64,000 bases of DNA, taken from the NCBI RefSeq assembly GCF_003591035.1, contig NZ_QYUO01000001.1, positions 1,922,001 through 1,986,000 on the forward strand. Direction: 5' to 3'. This DNA is from Noviherbaspirillum saxi (GTDB lineage: Bacteria > Pseudomonadota > Gammaproteobacteria > Burkholderiales > Burkholderiaceae_D). The translations under genes and the position numbers were made by a program. Under the pieces are notes generated by a model, which was not told where the DNA came from, ran no database searches, and saw only the letters and a program-made list of their open reading frames with translations. Position 1 is the stretch's first letter, and the number at the start of each line of letters is the position of its first letter. Positions 30,552 to 49,942 of this stretch are shown in pieces.

Positions 30552-30853
30552 TGAACTCCGAACTTGCTCTTCGCTATGAAACCGAGCCCAAGGTGTAGCA
30601 TTCGAGTTCGATCGGGTCATGGCGCAAAACAGTTCAACCTCGTCGCTATGGTCCGCTGCCAACTCGCGGAGCCGCGCCTGGTTTTGAAGTCACCTGAATC
30701 GCCGATTAGAAGAAACCCGATAGGAGTGGCATCTGTGGCGTTGCGGTGATCTCGGATTGGTGGTCGTAAGCATCTCCACAGTGCAGCAACTATATTTGTG
30801 TAGTGGTTCCCCAAAAAAGGGGCAAGCCGGCAAGAAACCAGGAAAGTCAGGCC

Positions 30854-31852: not shown

Positions 31853-31871
31853 AGTGGGGGCCTCAGTATGC

Positions 31872-33479: not shown

Positions 33480-33533
33480 GGTCTTGTGTAATTTATCGAT
33501 TCGGTCCGATGTCGATAGCGCTCGCATACAGGC

Positions 33534-34772
33534 TTAACGCGCAAGGATCGTGATGCACGCCGACGCTTCCTCGACCCCGATCAGGCCACCGCCGTTCTCC
33601 GCCAGGCCGACGCGGGCATTAGCCACCTGGCGGGAGCCGGCTTCACCACGCAACTGCATCACCAGTTCGTAAACCTGCGCCAGACCGGTAGCGCCGATGG
33701 GATGTCCCTTGGACTCCAGGCCGCCAGAAGGATTGACCGGGATACGTCCGCCGAGCGACGTCTCGCCGCGCTCGGCCAACGGACCGCCTTCACCGATCGG
33801 ACAGAAACCGAGGAATTCGGTCTGGACAATTTCGCCCATTGCGGTCGCGTCATGTACTTCAGCCACGGACACATCGGACGGGCCCAAACCGGCTTTCTCA
33901 TAGGCTTGCCTGGCGGCCAATGCGGTACAGGCATTCGCGTCGTCATGGACATCACGATCCGCGCCGGCCCGCACCACGGAAGCCAAGACGCGGATTGCGC
34001 GCGACCGGTCCAGGCCCAGGCGTTTAAGCGCACTTTCGTTGCAGACGATGGCTGCTGCCGCCCCATCCGAAACGGGCGAGCACATCGGCAAGGTCAGCGG
34101 ATAGGTGATCGGCGGCCCGGCCAGGACCTGCTCGATAGTGTACGGCTCCCGATACTGCGACAGCGGGTTGTGCTGCGAGTGCTGGTGGTTCTTGGCGGCG
34201 ACCGCGGCCAGCTGGCGTTGGGTGGTTCCATAACGTTTCATGTGCTCGCGCGCGAGAGAGGCATAGATGTCCATGAACACGCTGTATGGCTTGGGCGAAG
34301 TCGTGCCCTCGGGAATTTCCAGCCCCTGCCCCAGTTGCAGCAGGCGCCGCTTGTTTTCCTCGACCTGCGTGATATCCCATCCGCTATCGAACGCTGAAAA
34401 CATCTTCGCACGATCTGCCGAATACATCTTCTCGGCGCCCACCGCCAGCGCGATATCGCATTCTCCCGCCTTGATAAAGTTGACCGCCAGATGCATGGCG
34501 GTGCTGGCGCTCGCACACGCATTCTCGACGGTGACGATGGGGATGCCGCCAATACCCATGGCGCGCAGCGCCACCGGCCCCCGGATCATGTGCTGACCCT
34601 CCATGTGCCCCTGCACACAGTTGCCGAAGTACGCGGCCTGAAGGCTCGTGGCCTCCACGCCCGCGTCCTCGAGCGCTGCATCCACAGCGATCTTTGTCAG
34701 CTGCTTGATATTCAGATCCAGCAGCCTTCCGAACAGCGTCATGCCGACGCCGACGACGTATACGTTTTCCAT
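33534..34772 (-). CDS. Thiolase-like protein (SCP-x/lipid-transfer type)
   Basis: Thiolases cleave beta-ketoacyl-CoA. This 412-aa protein is of the SCP-x/'lipid transfer' branch: the nucleophile Cys lies in VENACASASTA (about residue 85) and the catalytic His in ESKGHPIGATG. The start VYVVGVGMTLFGR and EVHDATAMGEI are typical. Members of this branch act in steroid and branched-chain side-chain degradation and often need a small zinc-ribbon OB-fold (DUF35) partner, which is absent here. It lies between the MDR and the first CoA ligase in a co-directional operon. Confidence 0.9.
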   Translation of the reverse strand: MENVYVVGVGMTLFGRLLDLNIKQLTKIAVDAALEDAGVEATSLQAAYFGNCVQGHMEGQHMIRGPVALRAMGIGGIPIVTVENACASASTAMHLAVNFIKAGECDIALAVGAEKMYSADRAKMFSAFDSGWDITQVEENKRRLLQLGQGLEIPEGTTSPKPYSVFMDIYASLAREHMKRYGTTQRQLAAVAAKNHQHSQHNPLSQYREPYTIEQVLAGPPITYPLTLPMCSPVSDGAAAAIVCNESALKRLGLDRSRAIRVLASVVRAGADRDVHDDANACTALAARQAYEKAGLGPSDVSVAEVHDATAMGEIVQTEFLGFCPIGEGGPLAERGETSLGGRIPVNPSGGLESKGHPIGATGLAQVYELVMQLRGEAGSRQVANARVGLAENGGGLIGVEEASACITILAR

Positions 34773-34793
34773 ATTCTTGTTCCTTCAATCAGA

Positions 34794-35768
34794 TTAAGAC
34801 GTGTGGGAGAGAACGATCTTCCCGAAATGGCTGTTTGTCGCCATGTGCTCTAGTGCCTGCGAAATTTCATCAAGTCGATACACCTTGTCGATCGGCATGC
34901 GCAGTTCCCCCTTGCTGATGAAAGGCTCCAGATCGCGTCTGGCGCGAGTGACGACCTCCACTACCTCGACCGGGCTTCGCGTGCGGAAGCTCACACCGAC
35001 ATAGTTGATGCGGCGCATCGAATGCAAGTCGAAATTAAAGTCGCCGCTTTCGCCGGCAATGCGGCCGACGTTAACCATACGGCCGCCGATACGTGTTGCC
35101 GCCAGCCCGCCGTTGACATACGGCCCAGCCACCATGTCGACGAGGAGATCAACCCCGTTCCCCTCGGTGACGTCGAGCACCTGTTTCACCCAATCCGACG
35201 CGCGGGTGTCGACGACGACGTCCGCGCCGAAGTCCTTCAACCGAGCGCGACGATCCGCCGAGGTCGATGAGCCGATAACCAATCCGGCACCTAGCGCTTT
35301 CGCGATTTGCAGACCTGACAGTCCCACGCCTGAACTAGCGCCCTGGACCAGGATCGACTGTCCGGCCTTGAATGCACCATTGGTCGCGATGGCGTCGTGC
35401 ATGGTCTGAAGACCTACGGGCAACGCTGCGGCCTGCTCGTAAGACATGTCTTGCGGAATGGAATACATCAGTGGGGCATATCCTAGAGTGAAGTCAGCAA
35501 ACCCCCCGATGCCTGCACCCATCACTCGATCACCGACCCGCCAGCCGCCCGCATCCTGGCCCAGTTCAACGATCTCGCCGGCCCATTCGACGCCCAGGGG
35601 CACGCCTTGTCCGCCTGCGCTGCCGTGGGCAGCCCCTTTTGCCATCACCAGATCGATGCGGTTCAGCGCACTGGCCTTCACCTGAACCAGAACCTGTCCC
35701 TTGCCCGGCTGTGGCCGAGCGACTTCGGTAACAACGACTTCACTGCCGTTAGAAACTATTGCACGCAT
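34794..35768 (-). CDS. Quinone-oxidoreductase-like MDR protein
   Basis: This 324-aa medium-chain dehydrogenase/reductase lacks the zinc ligands of alcohol dehydrogenases and has the NADPH motif VQGASSGVGLSGLQIAKALG (about residue 145), like quinone oxidoreductases and enoyl reductases. It has the GroES-like N-terminal half (GVEWAGEIVELGQDAGGWRVGD). Its probable role is reduction of an enone or enoyl intermediate. The ATG at 35768 is preferred over the TTG just before it, with GAGGA upstream. Confidence 0.9.
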   Translation of the reverse strand: MRAIVSNGSEVVVTEVARPQPGKGQVLVQVKASALNRIDLVMAKGAAHGSAGGQGVPLGVEWAGEIVELGQDAGGWRVGDRVMGAGIGGFADFTLGYAPLMYSIPQDMSYEQAAALPVGLQTMHDAIATNGAFKAGQSILVQGASSGVGLSGLQIAKALGAGLVIGSSTSADRRARLKDFGADVVVDTRASDWVKQVLDVTEGNGVDLLVDMVAGPYVNGGLAATRIGGRMVNVGRIAGESGDFNFDLHSMRRINYVGVSFRTRSPVEVVEVVTRARRDLEPFISKGELRMPIDKVYRLDEISQALEHMATNSHFGKIVLSHTS

Positions 35769-35810
35769 CAAAAAATCCTCCTAATCCTCGTCACTGTGTC
35801 GTGTATACGT

Positions 35811-36332
35811 TCATACCTTGCGGATCGGGTTGGTTCCATCCCAGTTGAGGGCCGCCAGTCGAACCTGCTCGAAGATCTGGCCCTTGGGACCGCTGATGTC
35901 CGACAGTTCGATCACCGTGCCAGGGGTGGACGCCGATTCGAAATAACAGAAACGTCCGGTCGGTCCGCCGATCTGCCCTTCCTGTGCGACCTTGTGTCCG
36001 AGCGAGCGCGCGCGGTCCAGAACAGCCTGGTAGTCCTTGGTCCAGTACGCGATATGCTGGATCCCCGTTCCACCCGCTTCCACGAACTCTTTCCACATGG
36101 AGGGCCCATCGTTCTTCATCTGGATCAGCTCGATCTGCATGTCACCGGAATTCGCGACAGCGGCACCGATCAAGGCGCTGGAAGCCTGTCCGCGATAGTT
36201 GAAGTAGTCAATGTTGACGTTCTCGGCATGGAACCATGGACCGACGCCCATGGACAGCCAATGCTGCATCGCCGCTTCGATATCCTGTACTACGTAACCA
36301 ATCTGGCAAATCTTTCCAAAGAGAGTGCTCAT
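35811..36332 (-). CDS. VOC-family (glyoxalase/dioxygenase superfamily) protein
   Basis: The 173-aa protein has the paired beta-alpha-beta-beta-beta modules of the vicinal-oxygen-chelate family (Glyoxalase_4 type). Potential metal ligands are the Glu in MQIELIQ, the His in GIQHIAYW and the Glu in GTVIELSD. Relatives include methylmalonyl-CoA epimerase and small isomerases, and an epimerase or isomerase role on a CoA ester is plausible beside the CoA ligases and thiolase. It is co-directional with both neighbours. Confidence 0.88.
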   Translation of the reverse strand: MSTLFGKICQIGYVVQDIEAAMQHWLSMGVGPWFHAENVNIDYFNYRGQASSALIGAAVANSGDMQIELIQMKNDGPSMWKEFVEAGGTGIQHIAYWTKDYQAVLDRARSLGHKVAQEGQIGGPTGRFCYFESASTPGTVIELSDISGPKGQIFEQVRLAALNWDGTNPIRKV

Positions 36333-36391
36333 AAGATTCCTTTGTATAGTTGATGGAACGGCTTCGCCGCCAATGTCAGCAAGCCCCAGCG

Positions 36392-37993
36392 TTACCTGGA
36401 CAGCTTGTATTCAGCCTTCTCCCGGTCCCAGGTCGTCGGGGTGACGCCCTGTTCGCGCAGGCGGTACTTCTCGATGCGGTGGGTCGGTGTCTTGGGAAAC
36501 TCGGTCCGGAAGTCAACAAAACGGGGCACTGCGTAATAAGGCATCAGACCCTCGCAGTGCTTGATCAGGTCAAGTGCCGAGACTTCCTGTCCGGGTTTGA
36601 GAACCATGCAGATCATGACCTCGTCCTCGCCGACTTCGGAGGGGACGGCAATCGCCGCCGATTCCAGCACTGCGGGATGCGAATTGACCACCATTTCGAC
36701 CTCGAACGCCGAGATGTTCTCGCCCCGACGGCGAATCGCATCCTTCTTCCGGTCGACAAAGTAGTAGTAGCCGTCGCTGTCCCGCTTCATCAGATCGCCG
36801 GTGTGGAACCAGAGGTTGCGGCTTTGTGCCATCGTGGCGTCGGGGTTCTTGTAGTACCCGTCCATCATGATGTAAGGCTCCTGCGGCCTGAACACGAGCT
36901 CGCCAATGGTGTCGATACCGACCGGCTCGTCGTTGTCGTCCACCAGGTCCACCTCATAGCCGCAGATCGGCAGTCCGATCGACCCTACGCGCGTTGCGTC
37001 GAGCGGATTGGACAGCGCCACACAGTTCTCGGTTTGACCATAGCCTTCGTGAATGCGCAGGCCGAATCGCTCTTCGAACTGCAGCCACAAATCCTTTGGC
37101 GCTCCGCCTCCCGTGGCCATCCGGACCGAATGCTTTCGGTCTCCCGGGGACGGCGGTTGCTTCATCAGGATGGGGATCATGCCGCCGATGTAGTTGATCT
37201 GGGTAGCGCGGCAGGCACGCAGCCGCTCCCAGAAGGTCGATGCGCTGAAGTAATCGTCGATGATCAAGGTTGCCCCAGCCATCAGGACCGGCATTGCCGT
37301 GACCAACTGGGCGTTGGCGTGGAACAGGGGCAGGCAGGTGTAGAGACGGTCGTCTTGCTTGACGCCCCTCCCTTCTGCGCCCTTGCTGCCATGCCACCAG
37401 AAGTAGTTATGGCACAGCAGGATGCCCTTGGACGGCCCCGTGGTTCCCGACGAATACATGAGTGCCAGCGGATCCAGGTTGGAAATTCTGACATCCGGCA
37501 AGGGAACGGATTGCGTTTCAAGCACATCGAAGGGATGGGCCGGAAGCGGGAGATCCGGGACCTGGGTCGATCCGCGCGACCACAGGATGACCTTCTCCAG
37601 CTTCCCGAAGCCAACCAGCTCATGCTGGAATCGCTCGAGATATTCCTGCGACATCACCGCCATGCGCGAGTCCGAGTGTTCGACGACATGGCGCAGCAGT
37701 GGTCCGCGGTAGCCGGTGTTCAAAGTCACCTCGACCAGCCCAATGCGCGCGCACGCAAACCACAGCGCCATGAACTCCGGGCAGTTGGGAAGCATGATGG
37801 CCAGCTTGTCACCCTTCTTGAGGCCAAGCGCCACCAGCCCGCCGGCGATGGTCGTGACCCATTCGTCGAATTGCCGGTAGCTCCAGGACTGATCGCCGAA
37901 CACGATGAACTCGCTGTCCGGTCGAAGCGACGCCTGCATGGAGAGGCAAGCGCCTAGCGTGCGTTGTTCGTTCTTTAATTCAAATGGGTTCAT
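36392..37993 (-). CDS. AMP-dependent acyl-CoA ligase (second, CaiC-like)
   Basis: The 533-aa ANL-superfamily enzyme resembles crotonobetaine/carnitine-CoA ligases (CaiC) in layout. Motifs: MYSSGTTGPSKGI (A3, about residue 182), HEGYGQTEN (A5), HTGDLMKRDSDGYYYFVDRK (A7) and IRRRGENIS (A8), with a C-terminal Lys-containing PTHRIEK. The CaiC likeness does not prove a carnitine substrate; no other cai genes are present. It starts 84 nt after dctM, linking substrate import to CoA activation. Confidence 0.92.
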   Translation of the reverse strand: MNPFELKNEQRTLGACLSMQASLRPDSEFIVFGDQSWSYRQFDEWVTTIAGGLVALGLKKGDKLAIMLPNCPEFMALWFACARIGLVEVTLNTGYRGPLLRHVVEHSDSRMAVMSQEYLERFQHELVGFGKLEKVILWSRGSTQVPDLPLPAHPFDVLETQSVPLPDVRISNLDPLALMYSSGTTGPSKGILLCHNYFWWHGSKGAEGRGVKQDDRLYTCLPLFHANAQLVTAMPVLMAGATLIIDDYFSASTFWERLRACRATQINYIGGMIPILMKQPPSPGDRKHSVRMATGGGAPKDLWLQFEERFGLRIHEGYGQTENCVALSNPLDATRVGSIGLPICGYEVDLVDDNDEPVGIDTIGELVFRPQEPYIMMDGYYKNPDATMAQSRNLWFHTGDLMKRDSDGYYYFVDRKKDAIRRRGENISAFEVEMVVNSHPAVLESAAIAVPSEVGEDEVMICMVLKPGQEVSALDLIKHCEGLMPYYAVPRFVDFRTEFPKTPTHRIEKYRLREQGVTPTTWDREKAEYKLSR

Positions 37994-38077
37994 GACAATT
38001 ACGTTTCAAATTAGTTGGATTGAGTGGGTCGATTTCAGGCCGGGAAACAACATCAGATCGGCGTTGTCGTCACCGCA

Positions 38078-39388
38078 TCAACCCCGGACGAGGCGCGGCA
38101 ACCAAAGGCTGATTTCCGGGAAGATGATGAGCAGTGCCAGAATGATCAGTTCGATCCCCAGGAACCACAGCAGACCGCGGAAAATTGTTGTCAATGGGAC
38201 GCTGTCCCGTACGACACCCTTGACCACGAAGGCCTGGATGCCAATCGGCGGGTGCATCAGCCCCAACAGGATCAGCTTGACGACCACCACGCCCAGCCAG
38301 ACCAGGTCGAGGCCCAGCGTGCGGCAGATCGGCACCAGGATGGGCAGGGTCAGCATCATGATCCCGATACCCTCAAGGAACATGCCAAGCACGATGTAGG
38401 TACCGGTGACAATCAGCATGAAAGTCGTTACGCTGGGCTGCCAGCTGGTGATCAGCTTTCCGAGCTCATGGGGCAAACCCGACACCGCCATGAACCGCGT
38501 GAAGAGGGCCGCACCGATCACGATGAAGAAGAGCGAGGCGGTCGTCAGTGCAGACTCGGACAGGCTCTCACGTAGCACTTTCCAAGTCATCTCTCCACGC
38601 ACGATTGCGATCAGGCACGCCAGCATCGCGCTGCCGGCAGCGGCTTCCGTCGAGGTCATTACGCCGCTGTATAGCGTACCGAAGATGCCGATGAAGAGGA
38701 CAGGCAAGGGCCAGGCGTCAAAGTTGGCGGCACGCCGCTCCGCAGCGGTGAAATCCTTTTCGCCGCGCGGGCCGAGACTGGGATTCAAGGTACAGCGAGT
38801 GACGATCATTACCGTGTAAAGCACAGCGGTCAACAGCCCGGGCACGACCCCGGCCATGAACAGATCGGTGACCGGCACTTCGGCATACCACGAGTAGATA
38901 ATGAACGCGATGCTCGGAGGAATGAGAGCGTCAATCGTTCCGGACGCCGCCACCACCGACGTCGCCAGCGATTTGTCGTAGCGGTACTTCAGCATCTCCG
39001 GAATCGCGATCTTGGACATTACCGCGGTGACGGCGACGCTCGATCCCGACACTGCGCCAAATGCCGTGCTGGCCCAGTTCGTGGCGACAGCCAGTCCGCC
39101 AGGCACCCACCAGAACCACATCCGGCAGACCTTGTAGACCGATGCGGTCATGCCGGAGTGGAAGGCGAACGCCCCCATCAGGAGGAACATCGGCACGGCC
39201 GACAACGTCCAGTTGGCAGCAAAATCATATGGCAATGTGCCCAACGAGCCCAAGGCCGCGTTCGCGCCACGGATCGCCGCCATGCCGCCGACGGATACGA
39301 GCGCAAGGCTGATGGCGATCGGCATGCGCAAAAGGAGGAGGACGAAAAGTACGCCGATGCCCCACATGCCAATTTCAAAGTTGCTCAT
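38078..39388 (-). CDS. dctM: TRAP transporter large permease DctM
   Basis: This is the ion-coupled large membrane subunit of a TRAP transporter. The 436-aa protein is highly hydrophobic with about 12 predicted membrane segments and the DctM signatures SGSSVAVTAVMSKIAIPEM, ASGTIDALIPPSIAFIIYSW and LGMFLEGIGIMMLTLPILVP. It overlaps dctQ by 4 nt, and dctP is just upstream, so a full transporter is encoded here. Confidence 0.95.
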   Translation of the reverse strand: MSNFEIGMWGIGVLFVLLLLRMPIAISLALVSVGGMAAIRGANAALGSLGTLPYDFAANWTLSAVPMFLLMGAFAFHSGMTASVYKVCRMWFWWVPGGLAVATNWASTAFGAVSGSSVAVTAVMSKIAIPEMLKYRYDKSLATSVVAASGTIDALIPPSIAFIIYSWYAEVPVTDLFMAGVVPGLLTAVLYTVMIVTRCTLNPSLGPRGEKDFTAAERRAANFDAWPLPVLFIGIFGTLYSGVMTSTEAAAGSAMLACLIAIVRGEMTWKVLRESLSESALTTASLFFIVIGAALFTRFMAVSGLPHELGKLITSWQPSVTTFMLIVTGTYIVLGMFLEGIGIMMLTLPILVPICRTLGLDLVWLGVVVVKLILLGLMHPPIGIQAFVVKGVVRDSVPLTTIFRGLLWFLGIELIILALLIIFPEISLWLPRLVRG

Positions 39389-39951
39389 ATTGCGTCCCCC
39401 TTCAAGCCCGGTGTAAAGGTTTCAAATTCAGGTTCAAGCCCGGTTTCAGGTTCCGTGTCGCTAAAGGCGGAACGCAAATCGGAGACCGCTTGTACGGCGA
39501 GATAAGCAGCCGCCAGTGCCGCGCCGGCCACGACCATCCAGCGCGCAGGCCAGATGGGAACCGGGTTCAACTCGGAAGGTGCGGTTTCGAAGATGAGTGT
39601 CTTTTCCAACGCATCCCAACCGGCGTACCAAGCCAGTACGGACATGAAGACGCAACCGACGATAGCAACCGTGCCGTCGAGGAACGCCAGTACTCTCTTG
39701 GGCAGCAGCTGGTTGAACACCTCTACGATGATCTGCTGCCGCTGGCGCTGCACCACGGCCATGGGCAGAAAGGCGACTGCGACCATGTAGATGTAGGTGA
39801 CGACCTCGAGTGTTCCGCCGATCGGACGGCTGAAGATCAGGCGCCCAAGGATGTCCGCACAGACGTGCAGCATCATCAGCAAGGTCGCTGTGCAACCGAG
39901 CACAAGCAGCAGCGACGAAATTCGGTCCATGAGACCAATGGTGAACTTCAT
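39385..39951 (-). CDS. dctQ: TRAP transporter small permease DctQ
   Basis: The 188-aa protein has the four membrane helices expected for DctQ and the pattern RPIGGTLEVVTYIYMVAVAF and QRQRQQIIVEVF seen in the family. It pairs with DctM (4-nt overlap) and lies 21 nt after dctP. The C-terminal 30 residues are a soluble acidic tail. Inner membrane. Confidence 0.93.
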   Translation of the reverse strand: MKFTIGLMDRISSLLLVLGCTATLLMMLHVCADILGRLIFSRPIGGTLEVVTYIYMVAVAFLPMAVVQRQRQQIIVEVFNQLLPKRVLAFLDGTVAIVGCVFMSVLAWYAGWDALEKTLIFETAPSELNPVPIWPARWMVVAGAALAAAYLAVQAVSDLRSAFSDTEPETGLEPEFETFTPGLKGDAI

Positions 39952-39972
39952 GACATGGCTCCTTCACTGATC

Positions 39973-41073
39973 TCATTTCAGCTTGGAGAAGATCTCGCGC
40001 CACAACGCTTCTTCGTACGCCTTGCGGTCACCCTTGGTTTCCGCATTGATCTTTTCCCACTTCGCGAGCTTCTCGAGGTAGGTTTTAACCAGAACGTCCG
40101 CGCGCTCCACCCCCTGTTTCTTGTAGCTGCTGATGATGCGCTCGATGTCGGCACTACGGAACGCCGCCACTTTCTCGGAGTAGCCGCGCACGGCCGGGCT
40201 GAACTTCACCCCCTTGCTTTCGGCAAACCGTCGTGCCTCCTGGCCGTCGGCAACGCCGTTTGCCGTGGCCTCGGCCACCAGGAATGGCAGGTTCCGGGAG
40301 ATCACCTGCTTCTGTTCAGCACTCAGTTTCTTCCAGAGCTCGGTGCTGGCGACGAACGGCATGCGGCCGGCGAAGTCATGGCCGGTAGGCTGTTCGATGA
40401 CAAACTTTGCCACGTCGGCGAGGCCATACTGCTTCAGCCAATCAACACCAGCGATAGCGCCCTCGATCTGGCCGCGTTGCATCGCCTCAAACACCTCCGA
40501 CGGTGCGGTCGCAGCCGGACTGGCCCCAAGCTGCTGAATGAATATCTGTGACGGTCCGACACCCCGGATGAGCTTGCCCTTGAGTTCACCGATGTCATTG
40601 ATCGGATTCCTGAGGATGGTGTAGAAAGGTGCGCTACCGGAAAACGAGAGTCCCTTGATCTTGTAACGCGATAGTTCGGCGTCGCACTCGGGGCAGTTCA
40701 ACAGCACCATCTCGTTCATCGCGGCTGCGCCTGACCAGGGATCGAGCGCCTGAGCGCCGAGCTGTACGAACAGACTCAGGGTCTTCAACTCACTGAAGAA
40801 GAAGGCAGGAAACAGTTGGCCCGCATCCACGAGGCCGTCCTTGATGCTGCCCAGCGTGCTGCGGTAGTTGACGACCTGGCCGTCGAAGCTGGCGTCGAAC
40901 TTCAATTGTCCGTTGGCCTGCGTTTCCACCCGCTTGAAGAACTGGACGTTGGCGCGCGAGTTCGCCTCATTGGTTGGCATCGCGCCGCCAAAGGCAATCT
41001 TGGTCTGGGCCGCAGCCGTGCCGGCTGCGACCAGTGCAGCAGTGATGACAAGCGATTTGATGATCCGATGCAT
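39973..41073 (-). CDS. dctP: TRAP transporter solute-binding protein DctP (operon copy)
   Basis: This is the periplasmic binding subunit of the DctPQM transporter. The 366-aa product has a signal peptide ending in AAAQ and is a near-twin of the orphan protein at 21415-22512; it has one extra residue (SPAVRGYSE against SPVRGYSD). The ATG at 41073 is set by that twin and by the shared ribosome site. An upstream extension in the same frame is not supported. The high similarity suggests the same ligand class or a recent gene duplication. Confidence 0.93.
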   Translation of the reverse strand: MHRIIKSLVITAALVAAGTAAAQTKIAFGGAMPTNEANSRANVQFFKRVETQANGQLKFDASFDGQVVNYRSTLGSIKDGLVDAGQLFPAFFFSELKTLSLFVQLGAQALDPWSGAAAMNEMVLLNCPECDAELSRYKIKGLSFSGSAPFYTILRNPINDIGELKGKLIRGVGPSQIFIQQLGASPAATAPSEVFEAMQRGQIEGAIAGVDWLKQYGLADVAKFVIEQPTGHDFAGRMPFVASTELWKKLSAEQKQVISRNLPFLVAEATANGVADGQEARRFAESKGVKFSPAVRGYSEKVAAFRSADIERIISSYKKQGVERADVLVKTYLEKLAKWEKINAETKGDRKAYEEALWREIFSKLK

Positions 41074-41128
41074 GAGATGTCTCCTTATTGAAATTTGTTG
41101 CGAATACGTGAGTAGCAGATAGAAGGCT

Positions 41129-42022
41129 TCAGCGCTCTGGCGCCGCCTTGATGCCAGCACGCGCAGCGATGCTGGCCGGATATGCCGGCAGCATCCGAGG
41201 CCCGTGGCCGTCGTCGATTGCCCGGCGCAGTTCTGCCAGTACGGTTTCGAATACCGGGCCGGCGGTGCCGGCACCGCGCGCAAGCTGCAGGTAATAGTCG
41301 ACGTCCTTGAAGGCCGTGGCGACGGTTACCTGCGGTCGCGATGCATCACCCTCGAGCAGCCACGGTGTCAACCCCTGCAGCACACGATTCTGTCCGCCAC
41401 TGCGCGCGATCATTGCCAATAGCGCCGGCATGTCGAGGCGTTGCTGCAATGCCGTCGCAATGACTTCGCTGACGACACCGAGAATGCCGAATCCGAGGCC
41501 GTTGTTGATGAGCTTCGCGGCGTGACCGCAGCCGATGCCGCCAAAGACCTGCAGCGACTCGCAGAATGCGGTGAGAAGCGGCCGTGCGCGCTCGATCGTC
41601 TCCGGCTCGCCACCAACCAGGCCAAGCAATTGACCGTTCATCGCCTCGGCCGGACCACCTGTCACCGGCGCGTCGACGAATGCATGGCCCTGCTGTTGCA
41701 GCCGCTTGGCGAAATCGCGCGAAGCATCGGGAAGCGAGGTCGAACAGTCGATCACCAGCAGCCCCCGCGCCGCGCCGGCGGCGCCGTCCGCGTCAAAGAG
41801 CACCGCCTCGACGGCCGCGGTGCCGGGCAAGCAGGTTATGACCGCATCGCTTTCACGCGCCAGCGCGGCCGGCGTCGCGAATTCACGCGCACCTGCGGCA
41901 ACCAGCTCGTCGATCACCTCCCGCTTGTGGTGCGCCACCACGCCCAGCGAGTGGCCTGCGGCGATCAGCCGATGTCCCATGCCTCGGCCCATGAGGCCGG
42001 CACCAATCAGTCCGACACGCAT
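41129..42022 (-). CDS. 3-hydroxyisobutyrate dehydrogenase-like NAD(P)-dependent oxidoreductase
   Basis: The 297-aa protein belongs to the beta-hydroxyacid dehydrogenase family: Rossmann motif VGLIGAGLMGRGMGHRL at the start, the substrate-binding DAPVTGGPAEAMNG (about residue 115) and catalytic Lys in GHAAKLINN (about residue 167). Relatives include tartronate semialdehyde reductase and 3-hydroxyisobutyrate dehydrogenase. The ATG at 42022 has an excellent ribosome site (GGAGGTGAC). It is the first recognisable gene of the operon downstream of operator 1 and just before dctP. Confidence 0.93.
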   Translation of the reverse strand: MRVGLIGAGLMGRGMGHRLIAAGHSLGVVAHHKREVIDELVAAGAREFATPAALARESDAVITCLPGTAAVEAVLFDADGAAGAARGLLVIDCSTSLPDASRDFAKRLQQQGHAFVDAPVTGGPAEAMNGQLLGLVGGEPETIERARPLLTAFCESLQVFGGIGCGHAAKLINNGLGFGILGVVSEVIATALQQRLDMPALLAMIARSGGQNRVLQGLTPWLLEGDASRPQVTVATAFKDVDYYLQLARGAGTAGPVFETVLAELRRAIDDGHGPRMLPAYPASIAARAGIKAAPER

Positions 42023-42171
42023 GTCACCTCCCATGGTGAGCACTGATCGTTCTGGATACAAGAGACGCGGACCCTGCTTTGCAAGGCAATAGCGCAAGCG
42101 TTTTGCTGGCGCCTGGAATGCGGATGGGGGGCGATCGGCGTGGAGAGGCCGCGCCGGGTGAATGCATGCAT
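42007..42171 (-). CDS. Possible 54-aa leader ORF before the dehydrogenase
   Basis: An ATG at 42171 with a strong ribosome site (AAAGGAGACAACC) opens a 54-codon frame that ends 16 nt inside the dehydrogenase gene. The peptide (MHAFTRRGLSTPIAP...) resembles nothing I recognise. It may be a leader for translational coupling or the remnant of a lost first gene. Confidence 0.3.
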   Translation of the reverse strand: MHAFTRRGLSTPIAPHPHSRRQQNACAIALQSRVRVSCIQNDQCSPWEVTCVSD

Positions 42172-42275
42172 GGTTGTCTCCTTTGCATTACGTTGTGAAT
42201 GCAATGTTCGATGTGATTTATCTGCGTACTCGCCGCAGAACGGTACTTTCGATTTGTGAACACACTCTAGCATTA

Positions 42276-42289
42276 TGGAATCGATTCCA
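42276..42289 (-). promoter_or_regulatory. LacI-family operator 1
   Basis: TGGAATCGATTCCA is a perfect 14-bp palindrome with the central CG typical of LacI-family operators. It sits between lacI copy 1 and the dehydrogenase-TRAP-catabolic operon, in the 407-nt gap 42023-42429. Read toward that operon it is ATTGTGGAATCGATTCCATAAT, whose end could be part of a -10 box, so repression by LacI is likely. Confidence 0.75.
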
Positions 42290-42429
42290 CAATAGGTTGG
42301 AAAAAATTTTTGGCCATATCGGTTCACACATAGAGATTTAAGCTGTTCACACGGGAGACGGAGCCGCTGGCGAGAGCAGGAAACGGGAATCGTTACCATA
42401 TTGTCCCGCCGACGACGGCGGCAGATGGG

Positions 42430-43461
42430 TTACTTCGCGCCCATCTGCAGCTCGGCCGGCGGCACGCACGAGCGGCGCAACACCAACTCGGTCGGGAATG
42501 TGACGGTGCGATAGGTGCCGGCACGGCCTTCGATGCGCTCGATCAGCAGCTCGGCGGCCGTGCGGCCGAGCTGCTTCAGATCCCAGCGAAGTGCCGTGAT
42601 CCCTGGCGCAGCGAATTGGGCCAGTGTCGTGTCGCCAATGCTGACGACCGATATGTCTTCCGGAATGCGCAAGCGGTTTGCCTCAATCGCCGACAACGTG
42701 CCCGCGAGCATCGCCGTGCCGAGCGTGACGATCGCAGTCGGGCGCGACGGCCTCGCCAGCTCCTGCAGCACGTCGCTGAACACGTGCGGCTGGGACAGGT
42801 CGACATGGTCGCTGACCTTCAGCACGGACGGCGGCAATCCGGCATCGCGTACGGCCGCCTCGGCGCCGGCGATGCGTTCGCGTCCCGGCCGCACCCTATG
42901 CGACGGCGTCTCGAGCAGGATGCTGCGATGGCCCAGACTGAGCAGGTACGACACTACCGCATACGCACCCTGGCGGTGATCGACACCGACACGGTCGCAC
43001 GAGAGGTTAATGTCGCGATCGAGCAGCACCAGCGGCACGCCGGAATCCTTCAGCACCGCGAGCACATCCTCGCGCGTGTCGTCGTCCAGCGTGACCAGCA
43101 GGCCGTCCATGCGGCGGCGGCGAAACATGTTCAACAAGTCAAGTTCACGCGAGCCGCTTTGGGAGTTGGCGACGACCATCAGGTAGCCCGCCTCCTGCAG
43201 GCGGGCCTCTGCTGCGCCGATGATCTCGGCGTACAGCGGGTTCGCCACGTCCGAGACCATGCATCCGATGGTCCGGCTGGATTGGACACGCAAGCTCTGG
43301 GCGAATGCGTTGGGTTCATAGCCCAGCTTGGCCACCGCCTCGGCGACGCGAGCGCGCAGTTCTTCGCTCGCGTAGCGGTCAGGGTTCAGGGCACGCGAAA
43401 CACTGCTCGACGACACTCCGGCGAGCTTCGCGACGTCGCCAATCTTTACCGGCTCCTTCAT
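42430..43461 (-). CDS. LacI-family transcriptional regulator (copy 1)
   Basis: The 343-aa repressor has the LacI helix-turn-helix (VKIGDVAKLAGVSSSSVSRA, residues 4-23), hinge helix (EPNAFAQSLRVQSSRTIG) and a periplasmic-binding-protein-like ligand domain. The ATG at 43461 fits the family start. By eye it differs from copy 2 (44518-45579) at about a dozen positions, plus a different C-terminal tail; the recognition helix differs by only one residue (SSSS/SASS), so both should bind the same operator type. It probably controls the downstream operon through operator 1. Confidence 0.94.
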   Translation of the reverse strand: MKEPVKIGDVAKLAGVSSSSVSRALNPDRYASEELRARVAEAVAKLGYEPNAFAQSLRVQSSRTIGCMVSDVANPLYAEIIGAAEARLQEAGYLMVVANSQSGSRELDLLNMFRRRRMDGLLVTLDDDTREDVLAVLKDSGVPLVLLDRDINLSCDRVGVDHRQGAYAVVSYLLSLGHRSILLETPSHRVRPGRERIAGAEAAVRDAGLPPSVLKVSDHVDLSQPHVFSDVLQELARPSRPTAIVTLGTAMLAGTLSAIEANRLRIPEDISVVSIGDTTLAQFAAPGITALRWDLKQLGRTAAELLIERIEGRAGTYRTVTFPTELVLRRSCVPPAELQMGAK

Positions 43462-43515
43462 GCACGAACGTGCAATGATGATCTGCAAAACATCGGTAGC
43501 GCCCCGAATCGACGA

Positions 43516-44298
43516 TCAGAGCGACAGGGCGCCGTCGACGACGAGCTCGATTCCCGACACGTATCTGGATTCGTCGGAAGCAAGGAAGAGCGCGGCATTG
43601 GCGATATCCCATGCCGTCGCCTGGCGCCCCATGGGGCAGGCCGCATTGCGCATCTCGCGGCCCTTGCGTGCTTCTTCCTCGTTTTTGAAAAGTGCTGCGG
43701 CATGGGGTGTATCGACCAACCCGGGCACGATCACGTTGCAGCGCACCTGGTGCTTGGCATACTGGCGCGCGACGACTCGCGTCATGTGATTCAGCGCCGC
43801 CTTCGAGGTGCTGTATGACAGGAACTGCATCGGGCTCCACCTGTGGCTGGCAATCGAGGAGATGTTGATGATAGAGCCACCGCCCTGCCGAATCATATGC
43901 GGGACCACCTCGCGACTGGCCAGCATTGCGCCCTTGAGGTTGATGGCGTGCACCCTGTCCCAGGATTCCTCAGTAACATCAATGAGCTCGCCAAACTCCT
44001 CAATACCCACATTGTAGTGAAGCACATCCACCCGGCCGAACCTTTGCAGGCAGTGATCCACCATTGCCTTGATCTGCTTCGCACTTTGAACTTCGGCTTG
44101 AAATGCTTCAGCTGCGCCACCGACCTCTTTTACACGGCGCACAGTTTCCCGCGCCGCATCAGTCGAACGATCCGCGCAAAGCACAGTGGCTCCTTCGCGA
44201 GCGAAAGTTACGGCACAGGAAGCACCGTTGCTGACGTCGCTACCGATAGAGCCGGCACCAACTACGATCGCGATCTTGTCCTTAAGTCGTTGTGTCAT
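43516..44298 (-). CDS. SDR-family oxidoreductase (second)
   Basis: The 260-aa SDR has an unusual nucleotide motif, GAGSIGSDVSNGASCAVTFA, longer than the usual TGxxxGxG but known in one SDR subgroup. The catalytic Ser, Tyr and Lys are in NISS and Y-S-T-S-K, and the end reads VSGIELVVDGALSL. LHYNVGIEE replaces the usual NAAG motif. The ribosome site is AAGGAGATG. It sits between operator 2 and lacI copy 1, so it should be LacI-controlled. Confidence 0.9.
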   Translation of the reverse strand: MTQRLKDKIAIVVGAGSIGSDVSNGASCAVTFAREGATVLCADRSTDAARETVRRVKEVGGAAEAFQAEVQSAKQIKAMVDHCLQRFGRVDVLHYNVGIEEFGELIDVTEESWDRVHAINLKGAMLASREVVPHMIRQGGGSIINISSIASHRWSPMQFLSYSTSKAALNHMTRVVARQYAKHQVRCNVIVPGLVDTPHAAALFKNEEEARKGREMRNAACPMGRQATAWDIANAALFLASDESRYVSGIELVVDGALSL

Positions 44299-44375
44299 GC
44301 GAACATCTCCTTATTTGATTTATTTGTGAACCTGCACAAGAATGCGCTTCGATATGTGAAGGAACTCTAACATGC

Positions 44376-44389
44376 TGAAATCGATTCCA
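44376..44389 (-). promoter_or_regulatory. LacI-family operator 2
   Basis: TGAAATCGATTCCA differs from operator 1 at one base. It lies 78 nt before the SDR start and just downstream of lacI copy 2. The flanks (CTCTAACATG...CCACAATAG) also match those of operator 1 (CTCTAGCATT...CCACAATAG), showing that operator and regulator were duplicated together. Confidence 0.7.
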
Positions 44390-44517
44390 CAATAGTATCC
44401 ACGGGGAATATCCAGAAGACACAGGTGAATAGCCGGACGAGCCCGAGGGGAGCGGGCCACAACAAGGCGAGAAAAGGGAATCGTTATCCGATGGTCGCGC
44501 CTGCGGCGGCGCGTCGA

Positions 44518-45579
44518 TTACTTGGCGGCGGCCGTCTGCACCGCCGGGCGCGCGCCCTTCGACGGCTTCGCGGCAGGCGGAACGCACGAGCGGCGCAACA
44601 CCAACTCGGTCGGGAATGTGATGGTGCGATAGGTGCCGGCACGTCCTTCGATGCGCTCGATCAGCAGTTCGGCGGCCGTGCGGCCGAACTGCTTCAGGTT
44701 CCAGCGAAGAGCCGTGATCCCTGGCGCAGCGAATTGGGCCAGTATCGTGTCGCCAATGCTGACGACCGATATGTCTTCCGGAATGCGCAAGTGGTTTGCC
44801 TCAATCGCCGACAACGTGCCCGCGAGCATTGCCGTGCCGAGCGTGACGATCGCAGTCGGGCGCGACGGCCTCGCCAGCTCCTGCAACACGTCGCTGAACA
44901 CGTGCGGCTGGGACAGGTCGACATGGTCGCTGACCTTCAGCACGGACGGCGGCAATCCGGCATCGTGTACGGCGGCCTCGGCGCCGGCGATGCGTTCGCG
45001 TCCCGGCCGCACCCTATGCGACGGCGTCTCGAGCAGGATGCTGCGATGGCCCAGACTGAGCAGGTACGACACTACCGCATACGCACCCTGCCGATGATCG
45101 ACGCTGACGCGGTCGCACGAGAGATTGACGTCGCGATCGAGCAGCACCAGCGGCACGCCGGAATCCTTCAGCACCGCGAGCACATCCTCGCGCGTGTCGT
45201 CGTCCAGCGTGACCAGCAAGCCGTCCATGCGGCGACGGCGAAACATGTTCAGCAAGTCAAGTTCACGCGAGCCGCTTTGGGAGTTGGCGACGACCATCAG
45301 GTAGCCCGCCTCCTGCAGGCGAGCCTCTGCTGCGACGATGATCTCGGCGTACAGCGGGTTCGCCACGTCCGAGACCATGCATCCGATGGTCCGGCTGGAC
45401 TGGACACGCAAGCTCTGGGCGAATGCGTTGGGTTCATAGCCCAGCTTGGCAACCGCCTCGGCGACGCGAGCGCGCAGTTCTTCGCTCGCGTAGCGGTCGG
45501 GGTTCAGGGCACGCGAAACACTGCTCGCCGACACTCCGGCGAGCTTCGCGACGTCGCTAATCTTTACTGGACCATTCAT
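44518..45579 (-). CDS. LacI-family transcriptional regulator (copy 2)
   Basis: The 353-aa paralogue of copy 1 has the same domain layout: helix-turn-helix (VKISDVAKLAGVSASSVSRA), hinge (SLRVQSSRTIG) and ligand domain. It differs mainly by scattered conservative changes and a 14-residue Lys/Ala-rich tail. Ligand-domain residues are almost identical, so both copies probably respond to the same molecule. It lies upstream of operator 2 and the second SDR. Confidence 0.94.
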   Translation of the reverse strand: MNGPVKISDVAKLAGVSASSVSRALNPDRYASEELRARVAEAVAKLGYEPNAFAQSLRVQSSRTIGCMVSDVANPLYAEIIVAAEARLQEAGYLMVVANSQSGSRELDLLNMFRRRRMDGLLVTLDDDTREDVLAVLKDSGVPLVLLDRDVNLSCDRVSVDHRQGAYAVVSYLLSLGHRSILLETPSHRVRPGRERIAGAEAAVHDAGLPPSVLKVSDHVDLSQPHVFSDVLQELARPSRPTAIVTLGTAMLAGTLSAIEANHLRIPEDISVVSIGDTILAQFAAPGITALRWNLKQFGRTAAELLIERIEGRAGTYRTITFPTELVLRRSCVPPAAKPSKGARPAVQTAAAK

Positions 45580-46250
45580 GCGCGCAGTATAGCATCCGCC
45601 ACCGAACGCAGCCCCACGCCCGTAGTAGCGGCGCAGGTGAGACCAAGCATGTTGATGTTGTACGACCCAATCGCTACCCGACTCATCATGCCTCCCATCT
45701 GGATTCTGATCCCGCCGGTGGATTGAGCGACGCCCGCGGTACGCTGGTACGCATCTTCACGGCTGAACTTGAATCCACAGCACTATGCCAGGCGTTGCAT
45801 CACGGAATACGAAAAGCAGGAAAACAAGCGACCCATCCTCGAGAACCGAGCATGGATTTCGCCGAGTTTGGGCTGTTTGTGACAGTCGCGACCGCGATGT
45901 GCGCGATAGGAATCTACTTGATGCTTTCGGCTTTGTCGGAGATACGCTGGGCGTGGGGCTGTTCGATCCTTCGCACAGTCAAGCGGTCATCACGACCTAC
46001 TACTTGTTCGGCTTCGCCAGCGTCCACAGAAATGTCTGAAGAACCCCTTTTCTGGTTTTGCCGCAGCACGCATCCCTCGGGCCTGCTCATCTATCATCTA
46101 TTTACACATGAATTAGATGCTTCATTGCATCATATTGTGGAATCGCTTCCATCATTTATGAGGATGGATAGCGCGGGCAGCATTTTGCGGTCGATCGGGG
46201 CCATAGCCGAACAGCGTTGGGAATGGCCCAGCAGCGACAGGCGGCACTAC
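45580..46250. other. Long upstream region of the HxlR gene with a frame-broken remnant
   Basis: About 670 nt between lacI copy 2 and the HxlR promoter. On the plus strand MDFAEFGLFVTVATAMCAIG (from 45852) looks like a membrane-protein start, and the neighbouring frame then reads AFGFVGDTLGVGLFDPSHSQ up to 46039, as if one gene had been broken by a frameshift. I cannot name the family. From about 46080 on the DNA is AT-richer, and an operator-like palindrome lies at 46138-46151. Confidence 0.35.
46138..46151 (+). promoter_or_regulatory. Third LacI operator-like site
   Basis: TGGAATCGCTTCCA differs from operator 1 at one central base. Read toward the downstream genes, its context ATTGTGGAATCG is identical to that of operator 1 and in the same orientation. 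It lies about 100 nt upstream of the HxlR promoter. Confidence 0.55.
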
Positions 46251-46279
46251 TTGACAGCAGTGACTATACTTTTTATAGT
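46251..46279 (+). promoter_or_regulatory. Sigma-70 promoter of the hxlR-molybdoenzyme operon
   Basis: TTGACA (46251-46256), a 17-nt spacer and TATAGT (46274-46279) form a near-consensus promoter. Transcription should begin near 46286, about 28 nt before the HxlR ATG at 46314. Confidence 0.75.
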
Positions 46280-46313
46280 TAATGAAGAAAATCATGATGC
46301 AAAATGGAATGAC

Positions 46314-46871
46314 ATGAAAAGAAGCGACTTGGCTGATAGATATTGCTCAATTGCGAGAGCTGGGGCCGCCTTAACCGATGGTTGGTCTTTCGTAATCTTG
46401 AAGGAGATATTTCTATCGAACACGAGATTTGATGGCCTTCAGATGCAAACCGGAATGTCACCGCGCTCATTGACCTTACGCCTGAATTCGCTTGTTGAAG
46501 CCGGGATACTTAATCGGGTCTCCTATCAGGAGTCACCGGTGCGCTACGAATACCGGCCAACCGTCAAGGGCATTGAACTGTGGCCCGCGTTGGTGGCATT
46601 GAAAGAATGGGGCGACAAATGGAGCGGTCCCTGGAAAGACGAAGATCCCCCACTGATCCTGCACCACAAAGCTTGCGGCCACAGACTAGAGCTCGGTTTC
46701 ATCTGCAAGGCCTGTAAAGAACCGGTGGACGCCTATTCGAGCAGAATCACCATGACTCCAGGCATGCGCGAAGAGCGCGATCAATTCACCGACAAGCATC
46801 GAAAGGCCGTGCGCACCAAGCGCTCGGAGGCAGCAAGAGCTCTCAATCACTCCGGAGAAGAATCACCATGA
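46314..46871 (+). CDS. HxlR-family winged-helix regulator
   Basis: The 185-aa protein has the HxlR winged helix (CSIARAGAALTDGWSFVILK, FDGLQMQTGMSPRSLTLRLN, VRYEYRPTVKGIELWPALVA; residues about 8-100) and a C-terminal zinc-ribbon-like segment (HHKACGHRLELGFICKACKE). The ATG at 46314 is chosen because a strong promoter ends just before it; the same frame is open far upstream but unlike the family. It overlaps the molybdopterin enzyme gene by 4 nt, so it is probably its direct regulator. HxlR proteins often sense reactive aldehydes or redox state. Confidence 0.85.
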   Translation: MKRSDLADRYCSIARAGAALTDGWSFVILKEIFLSNTRFDGLQMQTGMSPRSLTLRLNSLVEAGILNRVSYQESPVRYEYRPTVKGIELWPALVALKEWGDKWSGPWKDEDPPLILHHKACGHRLELGFICKACKEPVDAYSSRITMTPGMREERDQFTDKHRKAVRTKRSEAARALNHSGEESP

Positions 46872-49057
46872 CCGAATTTAAGCGTACTTTGTGCACCAGC
46901 TGCGACGTATTCTGCCAGGTGCGTGCCGAAGTTCCAGCATCTGGTCAAGTTGGCGATGTACATGTCAAGGCTTCCGATAACAAACAATGGCGCGCAAATA
47001 TTTGCATTAAAGGTGTACATGCCCCGCAGGGATTCAGCCACCCGAATCGGGTGCTTTATCCACTGAGACGCATTGGCGAACGCGGATCCGGTCAGTGGCA
47101 ACAGGTAAGCTGGGACGAGGCGCTAGACGACATCGCTTCGCGCCTGTCAAAAGTCATCGATAAGTACGGTCCGGAAGCCTTTGCCGTTTCTGCCTCGTCG
47201 TCGAATCTGCAGACAGATCATGGCATGACCCGGCGCTTCATGAATCTGCTCGGGTCGCCAAATTGGATCAGCGGTGTTTCGCTGTGCATGGGCAACACGT
47301 CGGCTGTCAATCGCATGGTCTATGGATGGTATCCGTATCCAGATTACAACCAGACTCAGTGCATCGTGTTGTTCGGCCACGATCCAAAGCCGCATTCCTG
47401 GACGTCAATTTACAACGCGATCCGACGCGCTCAGGATCGCGGGGCAAAATTGATTGTCGTCGATCCGCGCAAAAGCGAGAGTGCTCAACGTGCCGACTTG
47501 TGGCTGCCGCTCAAACCCGGGTCCGATGCCGCCATGTGCTTCGGATGGATCAAAGTGATTCTGGACGAGGAGCTCTACGATAAAGACTTCGTCGCGCGTT
47601 GGACCGTCGGCTTTGACGATTTCAAACGACGGGTAGACGAATTTCCATTGGAGCGAGTTGCTCAACTTACTGGTGTGCCTGCTGAGTTGATTGCACAGGC
47701 GGCGCGTATGTATGCCACCAGTGGCCCTGCGGTGATCCCCTGGACGCCCATAACCGATCAACAACGCAATTCGACGTCAGCCATCCGGCTGCACAGCGCA
47801 CTCCGGGCAATCTGTGGATATCTAGACGTGCCTGGTGGGGAAGTCTTCCATGGACTTCACCCGGACATCATCTGTGAATCAGAGTTGGAACTCCATGAAG
47901 AGCTTCCGGAGGCTAAGCGCGCTTTGCAACTCGGTGCCGACCAATATCCTGTTTTCACCCACAGAGGTATGGAACCGCTGCGACAGGCCACCAAACGAGT
48001 GTGGGGGCGCGAATGGACCAACCTTATCGGCGGCAACTACATGGCTCACCCTTCGGCAGTATTCCGGGCGATGCGCGACGGTATGCCGTATCCAGTGAAA
48101 GCGTTCTTTGCATTAGGCAACAACGTGTTGATGAGCTATGCCAACATGCGACAGACCTACGACGCAATGATGAACCAGGACTTGATCGTCGTATTTGAAC
48201 AATTTCGCACGCCAACGGCACAACTGGCCGACTATATATTGCCGGGTGACAGCTGGCTCGAGCGCAACGCGTTGAATGACAGCCAAGGCTGGCTTTCTAT
48301 CGTGCGGCCGTCGCAGAAGGTAGTGGAGCCACCTGGCGAATGCCGTGGAGTACTCGATATCTGGTTTGGCCTAGCCCATCGCATGGGGTTGGGCGAACAT
48401 TTTCCTTGGTCGACAACGGAAGAGCTTTTGGACTATCGACTAAAACGCTTGGGAATGACTTACGAAGAATTTGCGGAAAAACATGTCTATCACTTTCCCA
48501 AACCCGAGTTCAAGAAATATGAGCGTACGGGATTTGCAACCCCTTCGGGAAAAGTCGAATTGCGGTCGAGTGTCCTGGAATCATTGGGATTCGATCCGTT
48601 GCCATATTGGCGCGACGGCCCGCCACGCGACGAAAGGTTTCCGCTCACGATGTTTATCGGTGTACGTGAAGATGAATATTTTCAGACTGGGCACCGGCAC
48701 ATCGGCAAACTGCGCAAGCGCAATGCAGAGCCACGTTTCTTCGTTTCGCCGTCCGATGCGGAGGTCGCGGGCGTCGAGCATGGCGAATGGGCCGAGGTCG
48801 TCACTGCACTGGGCAAGGTCAAGGCGCGAGTGGAGGTGCGGCCCGAGATGCCTACCGGAGTGGTCAGGGTACCCCACGGATGGTGGCAGCCTGAGCGTGC
48901 CGAAGGCGATGGTAGCCTCTCCGGCGCGTGGGAATTTGCCGACGCACAAATCTGCCCGGATGATCCCGATCACATGGACCTCGAACAGGGGGTACCACAG
49001 TTCAAAGGCGTAGCGTGCCGACTCCAGGCGATTGAAAACGCCGAGGGGGCGAAATGA
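46868..49057 (+). CDS. Acetylene-hydratase-like molybdo/tungstopterin enzyme
   Basis: This 729-aa protein of the DMSO-reductase superfamily binds one [4Fe-4S] cluster and a bis-pterin Mo or W. Cluster cysteines are C9, C12, C16 and C46. The key residues known from Pelobacter acetylene hydratase (C9, C12, D13, C16, C46, K48, metal-ligand C141, W179) appear here as C9, C12, D13, C16, C46, K48, C140 and W178, and RRFMNLLGSPNW precedes the metal Cys as in that enzyme. Length is almost the same (about 730 aa). There is no Tat signal and no FeS or membrane partner gene, which suits a soluble, possibly non-redox enzyme. Pocket residues differ (V14, S112 and M141 for I14, I113 and I142), so the substrate may not be acetylene. 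Comparison is from memory and needs alignment. Confidence 0.8.
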   Translation: MTEFKRTLCTSCDVFCQVRAEVPASGQVGDVHVKASDNKQWRANICIKGVHAPQGFSHPNRVLYPLRRIGERGSGQWQQVSWDEALDDIASRLSKVIDKYGPEAFAVSASSSNLQTDHGMTRRFMNLLGSPNWISGVSLCMGNTSAVNRMVYGWYPYPDYNQTQCIVLFGHDPKPHSWTSIYNAIRRAQDRGAKLIVVDPRKSESAQRADLWLPLKPGSDAAMCFGWIKVILDEELYDKDFVARWTVGFDDFKRRVDEFPLERVAQLTGVPAELIAQAARMYATSGPAVIPWTPITDQQRNSTSAIRLHSALRAICGYLDVPGGEVFHGLHPDIICESELELHEELPEAKRALQLGADQYPVFTHRGMEPLRQATKRVWGREWTNLIGGNYMAHPSAVFRAMRDGMPYPVKAFFALGNNVLMSYANMRQTYDAMMNQDLIVVFEQFRTPTAQLADYILPGDSWLERNALNDSQGWLSIVRPSQKVVEPPGECRGVLDIWFGLAHRMGLGEHFPWSTTEELLDYRLKRLGMTYEEFAEKHVYHFPKPEFKKYERTGFATPSGKVELRSSVLESLGFDPLPYWRDGPPRDERFPLTMFIGVREDEYFQTGHRHIGKLRKRNAEPRFFVSPSDAEVAGVEHGEWAEVVTALGKVKARVEVRPEMPTGVVRVPHGWWQPERAEGDGSLSGAWEFADAQICPDDPDHMDLEQGVPQFKGVACRLQAIENAEGAK

Positions 49058-49244
49058 CTTACAGAAATTTTGTCTACGATGTTAGTGACAACATTGCAAG
49101 CACGCATTTGGCGGGGTGAAAAAGAAGCTGATGATGTCGGGAAACGACACTTTGGAATCGCAGATGGAACGCGAGACCCGTATAGCAGGCTATTTAAAAT
49201 GGTATCAAACAAGAAGGACGCAAACCGTCCCCAAGGAGAAATGA

Positions 49245-49877
49245 ATGACCACCACGTACGACCCCAAGCTCACGGCTCTGCTGTGCATTGACCTATACAA
49301 CGATTTTCTCAGTGAGGGTGGCAAGCTGTTCCCATGGGTGAAAGACATCGCCCAGGAGAACAACATGCTCGAGAATCTGCGCACTATCGTCAAGACGGCA
49401 CGTGCGGCAGGAATCGCCATCTATCACGTGCCTCACCATCGCTCGCAGCCGGGAGACTATGAAACCTGGAAGTATCCATCGCCCTACCAGTTGGGTACTG
49501 CCAAGGGACAAGTCTTCGCCAAGGACACTTGGGGCGGCTCGTTCCATGACGACTTCCAGGTCCAGCAAGGCGACATCGTCGCTACCGAGCACTGGGCGTC
49601 AAGCGGTTTTCCGAACACAGACCTCGAACACCAACTCAAGCGCTTCGGCAAGGAAAAGATCATCTGCATCGGACTACTGGCCAACACCTGTTTGGAAGCG
49701 ACCGCCCGCATCGGCATGGAACTGGGCTTTCACGTTACGCTAGTGCGTGATGCCACAGCAGCGCGATCCCACGAGGCGCTGCGCGCGGCCCTGGATATTA
49801 ATGCTCCGACCTATGCCCACGAGATCCTCACCACCGCGGAACTCGTCGCTGCCATCAGTAGGACGACGCCAATCTGA
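49245..49877 (+). CDS. Isochorismatase-family cysteine hydrolase
   Basis: The 210-aa protein has the isochorismatase fold: catalytic Asp in LLCIDLYNDF (residue 16) and the nucleophile Cys in GLLANTCLEATAR (about residue 149). Where the catalytic Lys usually sits ('EKH' after a DIV strand), it reads DIVATEHWASSGF, so Glu replaces Lys; this variant recurs in a subgroup of the family. Substrate unknown; amide or isochorismate-like hydrolysis is possible. It lies 187 nt after the molybdoenzyme with a ribosome site (AAGGAG) and may be co-transcribed with it. Confidence 0.85.
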   Translation: MTTTYDPKLTALLCIDLYNDFLSEGGKLFPWVKDIAQENNMLENLRTIVKTARAAGIAIYHVPHHRSQPGDYETWKYPSPYQLGTAKGQVFAKDTWGGSFHDDFQVQQGDIVATEHWASSGFPNTDLEHQLKRFGKEKIICIGLLANTCLEATARIGMELGFHVTLVRDATAARSHEALRAALDINAPTYAHEILTTAELVAAISRTTPI

Positions 49878-49942
49878 GCGAACCGACTCAAGCTCCACTT
49901 GGGCTGATGATGGTTAAGACCGGCTACTCTGTTCCGTCCGGA

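Follow-up and report, generated by a model that had tools for sequence, protein, structure and literature searches.

The gene at 46868..49057 on the forward strand of a 64,000-nucleotide stretch of the Noviherbaspirillum saxi genome (the window, whose positions are used throughout) encodes a predicted metallopterin enzyme of 729 residues. Sequence, tree and predicted fold give good support to its membership of the acetylene hydratase (AH) subfamily, as claimed in an original prediction made from the DNA letters. The open reading frame (ORF) has exactly these bounds and starts with ATG. On balance, we think it probable that the product is a lone, cytoplasmic, inducible hydratase-type enzyme, dependent on molybdenum or tungsten (Mo/W), that acts on an alkyne-like substrate. 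The reference structure was that of the Pelobacter (Syntrophotalea) acetylenicus enzyme (PDB 2e7z), and pocket positions are numbered as in that protein.

A Pfam scan of the enzyme returned PF00384 and PF01568 only. Among solved structures the best sequence match was AH 2e7z (693 bits, E 3.4e-207, residues 5–714; 46% identity, 318/697), followed by the thiosulfate/polysulfide reductase 2vpw (227 bits), which carries Phe at position 13. Together with the 120 listed homologues at 61–87% identity, the 2e7z score excludes a chance match. The named homologues include Cupriavidus, Paraburkholderia, Hydrogenophaga and Variovorax, which suggest the betaproteobacterial setting given in the original prediction. 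The predicted fold is likewise nearer to AH than to other members of the superfamily. The best NCBIfam models were those for PhsA (273.5 bits, cut-off 694) and Fdh-alpha (269.7 bits, cut-off 666.25), and no AH model was found among the best 25 of the 27 families matched. This may be why the sources use the names "molybdopterin-dependent oxidoreductase" and "selenocysteine-containing dehydrogenase"; a few relatives (P0108, P0208, P0253 and P0285) are named "acetylene hydratase". These models would suit a redox enzyme akin to PhsA/Psr or formate dehydrogenase whose partner subunits, with which PhsA/PsrA works, had been lost. We regard such an enzyme as very improbable, with both scores far under their cut-offs, the structure search, tree and fold all favouring AH by a wide margin, and no electron-transfer partner subunit adjoining the gene among those at 44.5–50.3 kb. 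The original prediction had noted this absence, as well as that of a Tat signal, and a simple scan of the first 45 residues for a twin-arginine pattern gave no match in the window enzyme or any other of the 75 AH-clade rows.

All residues listed in the original prediction were present and aligned as claimed, whereby C9, C12, D13, C16, C46, K48, C140 and W178 correspond to AH C9, C12, D13, C16, C46, K48, C141 and W179. On the forward strand, the codons for C9-T10-S11-C12-D13-V14-F15-C16 lie at 46892..46915 and those for C46-I47-K48 at 47003..47011; C140 and M141 (AH C141 and I142) are encoded at 47285..47290, W178 at 47399..47401, and the span from W292 to D297 (AH W293 and D298) at 47741..47758. 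By analogy with AH, the protein is predicted to hold a single 4Fe-4S cluster through C9, C12, C16 and, as the fourth ligand, C46, and Cys140 would be the metal ligand of a bis-molybdopterin guanine dinucleotide (bis-MGD) cofactor containing Mo or W. Asp was found at position 13 in all 74 AH-clade rows having a letter there and in none of 11 outside rows, whereas C141, present in 75/75 AH-clade rows along with W179, W293 and D298, is also carried by several outside rows and so is not AH-specific. The available text of PMC12096430 describes Asp13 as subfamily-specific, with exchange for Ala abolishing AH activity and Glu being tolerated.

In an 86-row tree the window enzyme fell within a 75-row AH clade (SH-aLRT 100), and a 41-row tree concurred (support 100/99). 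Outside the clade were rows of metallopterin ergothioneine synthase (MES)-like, Psr, FdhF and DmsA proteins and three host paralogues; several of these rows are long, such that their joins may be false, and the PhsA/Psr family is represented by one partial 2vpw row. Neither observation named beforehand as speaking against the assignment, a place within redox families or loss of the D13 and C140 alignment, was made. The AH clade has three parts: a branch with the plasmid protein of Rhodococcus opacus DSM 44186 and P0143 of Bradyrhizobium sp. I71, the Pelobacter AH branch, and the large branch holding the window enzyme. The latter two were sisters in the 41-row tree (100/99), and a grouping of R. 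opacus with Pelobacter that left out the window branch was rejected (approximately unbiased test, p 0.0026); the window branch therefore lies between two branches linked to growth on acetylene and belongs to neither. For the Pelobacter branch the link is by assay. R. opacus DSM 44186 and Bradyrhizobium sp. I71 we take to be aerobic acetylene users; a literature search found no paper on DSM 44186, or on I71 with acetylene. The R. opacus protein (44% identity to the window enzyme, 313/719) and P0143 share D13, C141, W179 and W293 with it. Unlike the window enzyme, the R. opacus protein lacks three residues at the 113 loop and has L142 and W472. Its plasmid locus (L044 11998–18876) carries the AH-like gene, then AurF/ferritin-like and fdxA genes, with moeZ beyond an IS5 transposase gene; further transposase and integrase genes lie nearby.

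The substrate pocket is where the window enzyme departs from both acetylene-linked branches. AH I14, I113 and I142, which we, like the original prediction, take to be pocket residues, are replaced by V14, S112 (codon 47201..47203) and M141. These three changes had been predicted correctly, but the list was incomplete, as W472 is also replaced, by Q473 (48284..48286), with a Trp two residues beyond. Positions 14/113/142/472 thus read V/S/M/Q in the window, I/I/I/W in Pelobacter AH and I/gap/L/W in R. opacus. The residue counts that follow cover rows of 600 to 820 residues. Across P0121–P0149 (29 proteins, one too short to score), L142 was found in 28/28 and W472 in 27/28. Among the 120 listed homologues position 113 is W in 100, A in 18 and S in 2, position 142 is A in 92, M in 20 and S in 8, and position 472 is F in 98, W in 9, Y in 9, L in 3 and I in 1. 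When the window enzyme is included (n = 121), the 113–142 pairs are W-A (92), W-S (8), A-M (18) and S-M (3), and the S112/M141 type belongs to a subgroup of 21 proteins split off by one change on the tree. This alternation of a small residue at 113 plus Met142 with Trp113 plus a small residue at 142 resembles a size swap more than a pocket enlargement. The original proposal of a larger substrate is unsupported as argued, all three positions being variable within the AH clade. The swap is not strict, since ten proteins outside this set combine Trp113 with Met142; with one tree change behind it the pairing has no statistical weight, and it was dropped as evidence of packing. Position 472 deserves little weight, because in P0218, which shares 81% identity with Pelobacter AH, it is Cys, and position 113 varies in this protein as well. 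As the pocket residues differ, the window enzyme may have a substrate other than that of AH.

A strict acetylene hydratase, converting acetylene to acetaldehyde and thereby letting the host use or remove acetylene, would fit the conserved catalytic residues and the tree, in which the window branch falls within the group spanned by Pelobacter AH and the plasmid protein of R. opacus DSM 44186. The available text of PMC7858054 reports the R. opacus AH, from an aerobe, as Mo-dependent and as different from the Pelobacter enzyme, which supports acetylene use by R. opacus at the species level; AH is called obligately W-dependent in the available part of PMC12096430. An aldehyde dehydrogenase gene stands ahead of one AH-like copy in genome G645, with genes for an ActP-type symporter and an acyl-CoA synthetase near. 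We nevertheless consider strict acetylene hydratase activity unlikely: the I14/I113/I142/W472 pocket is not that of the window enzyme, F rather than W472 is the commonest residue in its set (98/120, with the qualifier of P0218), an aldehyde dehydrogenase gene stands just upstream in 1 of 16 genomic copies whose neighbours were partly scanned, and, in contrast to the loci described in the available text of PMC7858054, the gene has no neighbour coding for an Fe-S protein.

Hydratase chemistry is, we infer, the most likely function of the window enzyme. As in AH, Asp13 would sit over the metal and serve to activate water (or the substrate), and the reaction, redox-neutral overall, would add water to a C-C triple bond or a group of similar chemistry. 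Because the pocket differs from those of both acetylene-growth-linked branches, acetylene is no more likely a substrate than some other alkyne-like compound. Several points weigh against this proposal. Literature searches showed no assay of any member of the window branch, and the available text of PMC12096430 states that other AH-subfamily members are not biochemically characterized. The assignment of the R. opacus plasmid protein as an acetylene hydratase comes from the strain and not from assay, and the pocket of the window enzyme itself departs from that of AH. In the available text of PMC7858054, every acetylene hydratase gene described there except one has genes for Fe-S-binding proteins in nearly adjacent positions, and the window gene has none beside it. 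MES, with a related metallopterin module, performs sulfur transfer (available text of PMC9516567). The HxlR-family regulators found beside AH-like genes may not be orthologues, with G1343 and G1248 each having another HxlR protein that matches that of the window better (the AH-adjacent one being second best). Finally, a flavin reductase fusion in P0230 and a flavodoxin-fold gene in G645 raise the prospect that electrons matter, if only for activation. In P0230, an AH-like protein of 919 residues, an NADPH-dependent FMN reductase/flavodoxin domain is fused at the N-terminus, perhaps a sign that reductive activation is needed.

As a wider proposal, held tentatively and at low probability, the window branch may comprise non-redox Mo/W hydratases of many Proteobacteria and some Actinobacteria whose substrates are alkynes other than acetylene. 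One candidate substrate class, small alkynoates, is suggested by the symporter, dehydrogenase and acyl-CoA synthetase cluster of G645. Acetylenecarboxylate hydratase is an old activity in the literature, for which the non-acetylene proposal, if true, could supply a gene. AH is described as the only known Mo/W enzyme without a redox reaction (available text of PMC12096430), and attempts with higher alkynes as its substrates have not succeeded to date (available text of PMC5687055). The window branch is conserved and retains the catalytic Asp, the metal Cys and the Trp within a changed pocket, which would allow a direct test of whether this metal site hydrates compounds other than acetylene.

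The G645 cluster contains a pair of AH-like genes separated by about 10 kb (L038 5034–18136 and L039 33–3063), 53% and 70% identical to the window enzyme, as well as HxlR, short-chain dehydrogenase/reductase (SDR), flavodoxin-fold and crotonase genes. Its ActP-type symporter scored 788.1 bits, over the subfamily-model cut-off of 750 and under that of the ActP equivalog model; the aldehyde dehydrogenase matched the succinate-semialdehyde dehydrogenase model best, under its cut-off; and the acyl-CoA synthetase scored 726.4 bits (cut-off 677). Hydration to an aldehyde, followed by oxidation and activation with CoA, would fit this one cluster.

In the window the gene order across 44.5–50.3 kb is LacI regulator, HxlR regulator, enzyme, isochorismatase-family hydrolase and fliE. 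The HxlR gene (46314..46871, forward strand, 46314 being the likely start of an ORF open from 45723) has a stop codon that overlaps the start of the enzyme gene by 4 bp (ATGA), and its product would control expression of the enzyme. The protein bears a Cys-containing C-terminal tail (CGH...CKAC) past the helix-turn-helix domain. When 16 genomic copies were compared (the window and 15 from 14 other genomes), a gene for a one-component regulator was found to adjoin the enzyme gene in 12, spanning 8 genera (same-genus pairs G1343/G1248, G1250/G1345, G1270/G1151 and G423/G1179). The regulator is of the HxlR family in the window, G1343, G1248 and G1223, TetR in G1250, G1345, G1270 and G1151, MarR in G423, G1179 and copy 2 of G645, and GntR, on the 3' side, in G1252. 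For copy 1 of G645 an HxlR gene lies about 4.4 kb off, and no adjoining regulator gene was seen in G915, G977 or G1130, where one neighbour each was scanned for it. The HxlR protein encoded next to the AH-like gene is the best match to the window regulator in G645 and the sole match in G1223. No recurring catabolic partner gene was seen across these loci.

Downstream of the enzyme, the isochorismatase-family hydrolase gene (49245..49877, forward strand) is a neighbour of uncertain relevance. Its best models, RutB and biuret amidohydrolase, were both matched far under cut-off, and they bear on another possibility, namely that the enzyme carries out metallopterin chemistry other than hydration, for example sulfur transfer or desulfurization of a heterocycle, with the amidohydrolase-type neighbour perhaps acting on the product. 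MES resembles the window enzyme in its AH-related N-terminal module and metal Cys (available text of PMC9516567), and an MES-like fusion, L015, is one of the closer outgroups in the tree. Such chemistry seems doubtful to us: MES has a fused cysteine desulfurase, which the window enzyme lacks, the MES-like rows L015 and L013 are without D13, W179 and W293, and no homologue of the hydrolase was found in the 16 fetched AH-like loci, that of R. opacus included (L039 and L045 being short, under 4.5 kb). Thiohydantoin or ergothioneine catabolism was set aside as a lead on the missing hydrolase homologues and the lack of D13 in MES-like rows, and a literature search on it yielded nothing relevant. 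L015 itself (7968–11375), from a Candidatus Zixiibacteriota metagenome-assembled genome, encodes 1135 residues with a NifS-like C-terminus (509.8 bits, cut-off 530.75).

The enzyme gene lies in what the original prediction had called a catabolic island, and comparison with congeners bore this out. In 4 congeners (G010, G001, G008 and G012, fetched out of 14 with fliE found; FliE and FliF were assigned by Pfam) the FliS, FliK-like and YcgR-like genes, at 17.4–20.5 kb in the window, lie 64–243 bp from the fliE-matching stretch. In the window the YcgR-like side and fliE are 29.4 kb apart, splitting the flagellar cluster, so the segment at 20499..49941, absent in all 4, is best read as an insertion. 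It contains genes for a TRAP transporter, LacI, SDR, acyl-CoA ligase, thiolase and other catabolic-type proteins. As G+C is 0.546 across 45,723–49,941 against 0.601 across 27,000–45,722, the enzyme-bearing end may have arrived separately from the rest. No direct or inverted repeats of at least 12 bp were found at the island ends (20380–20900 against 49780–50060), nor any integrase or transposase among the part of the island ORFs that was scanned.

Carriers of the enzyme are scattered across the sampled taxa. At E ≤ 1e-120 they numbered 1/15 in the genus, 1/392 in the family, 5/399 in the order and 3/398 in the phylum (the window genome counted in each), 10/240 in the class of G423 (G423 counted) and 1/60 in the genus of G645 (G645 itself), in overlapping sets with two candidates scored per genome (up to four in one set), such that carriers may be missed.

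Further genes were noted at the loci of relatives. Past the TetR gene, G1270 (L058 7008–8807) and G1151 (L060 11221–12416) carry a MobA-like gene, with MobB further out in G1270 (L058), which fits an MGD cofactor. Just 3' of the AH-like gene there is a small ORF of about 82–105 codons in L054 (10927–11184), L056 (8473–8790), L058 (11186–11434) and L060 (8591–8842); the products are 34–82% identical to one another, and the L060 copy has no Pfam match. In G915 a gene of the RuBisCO large-chain type (L041 11382–12716) lies upstream of the AH-like gene in divergent orientation.
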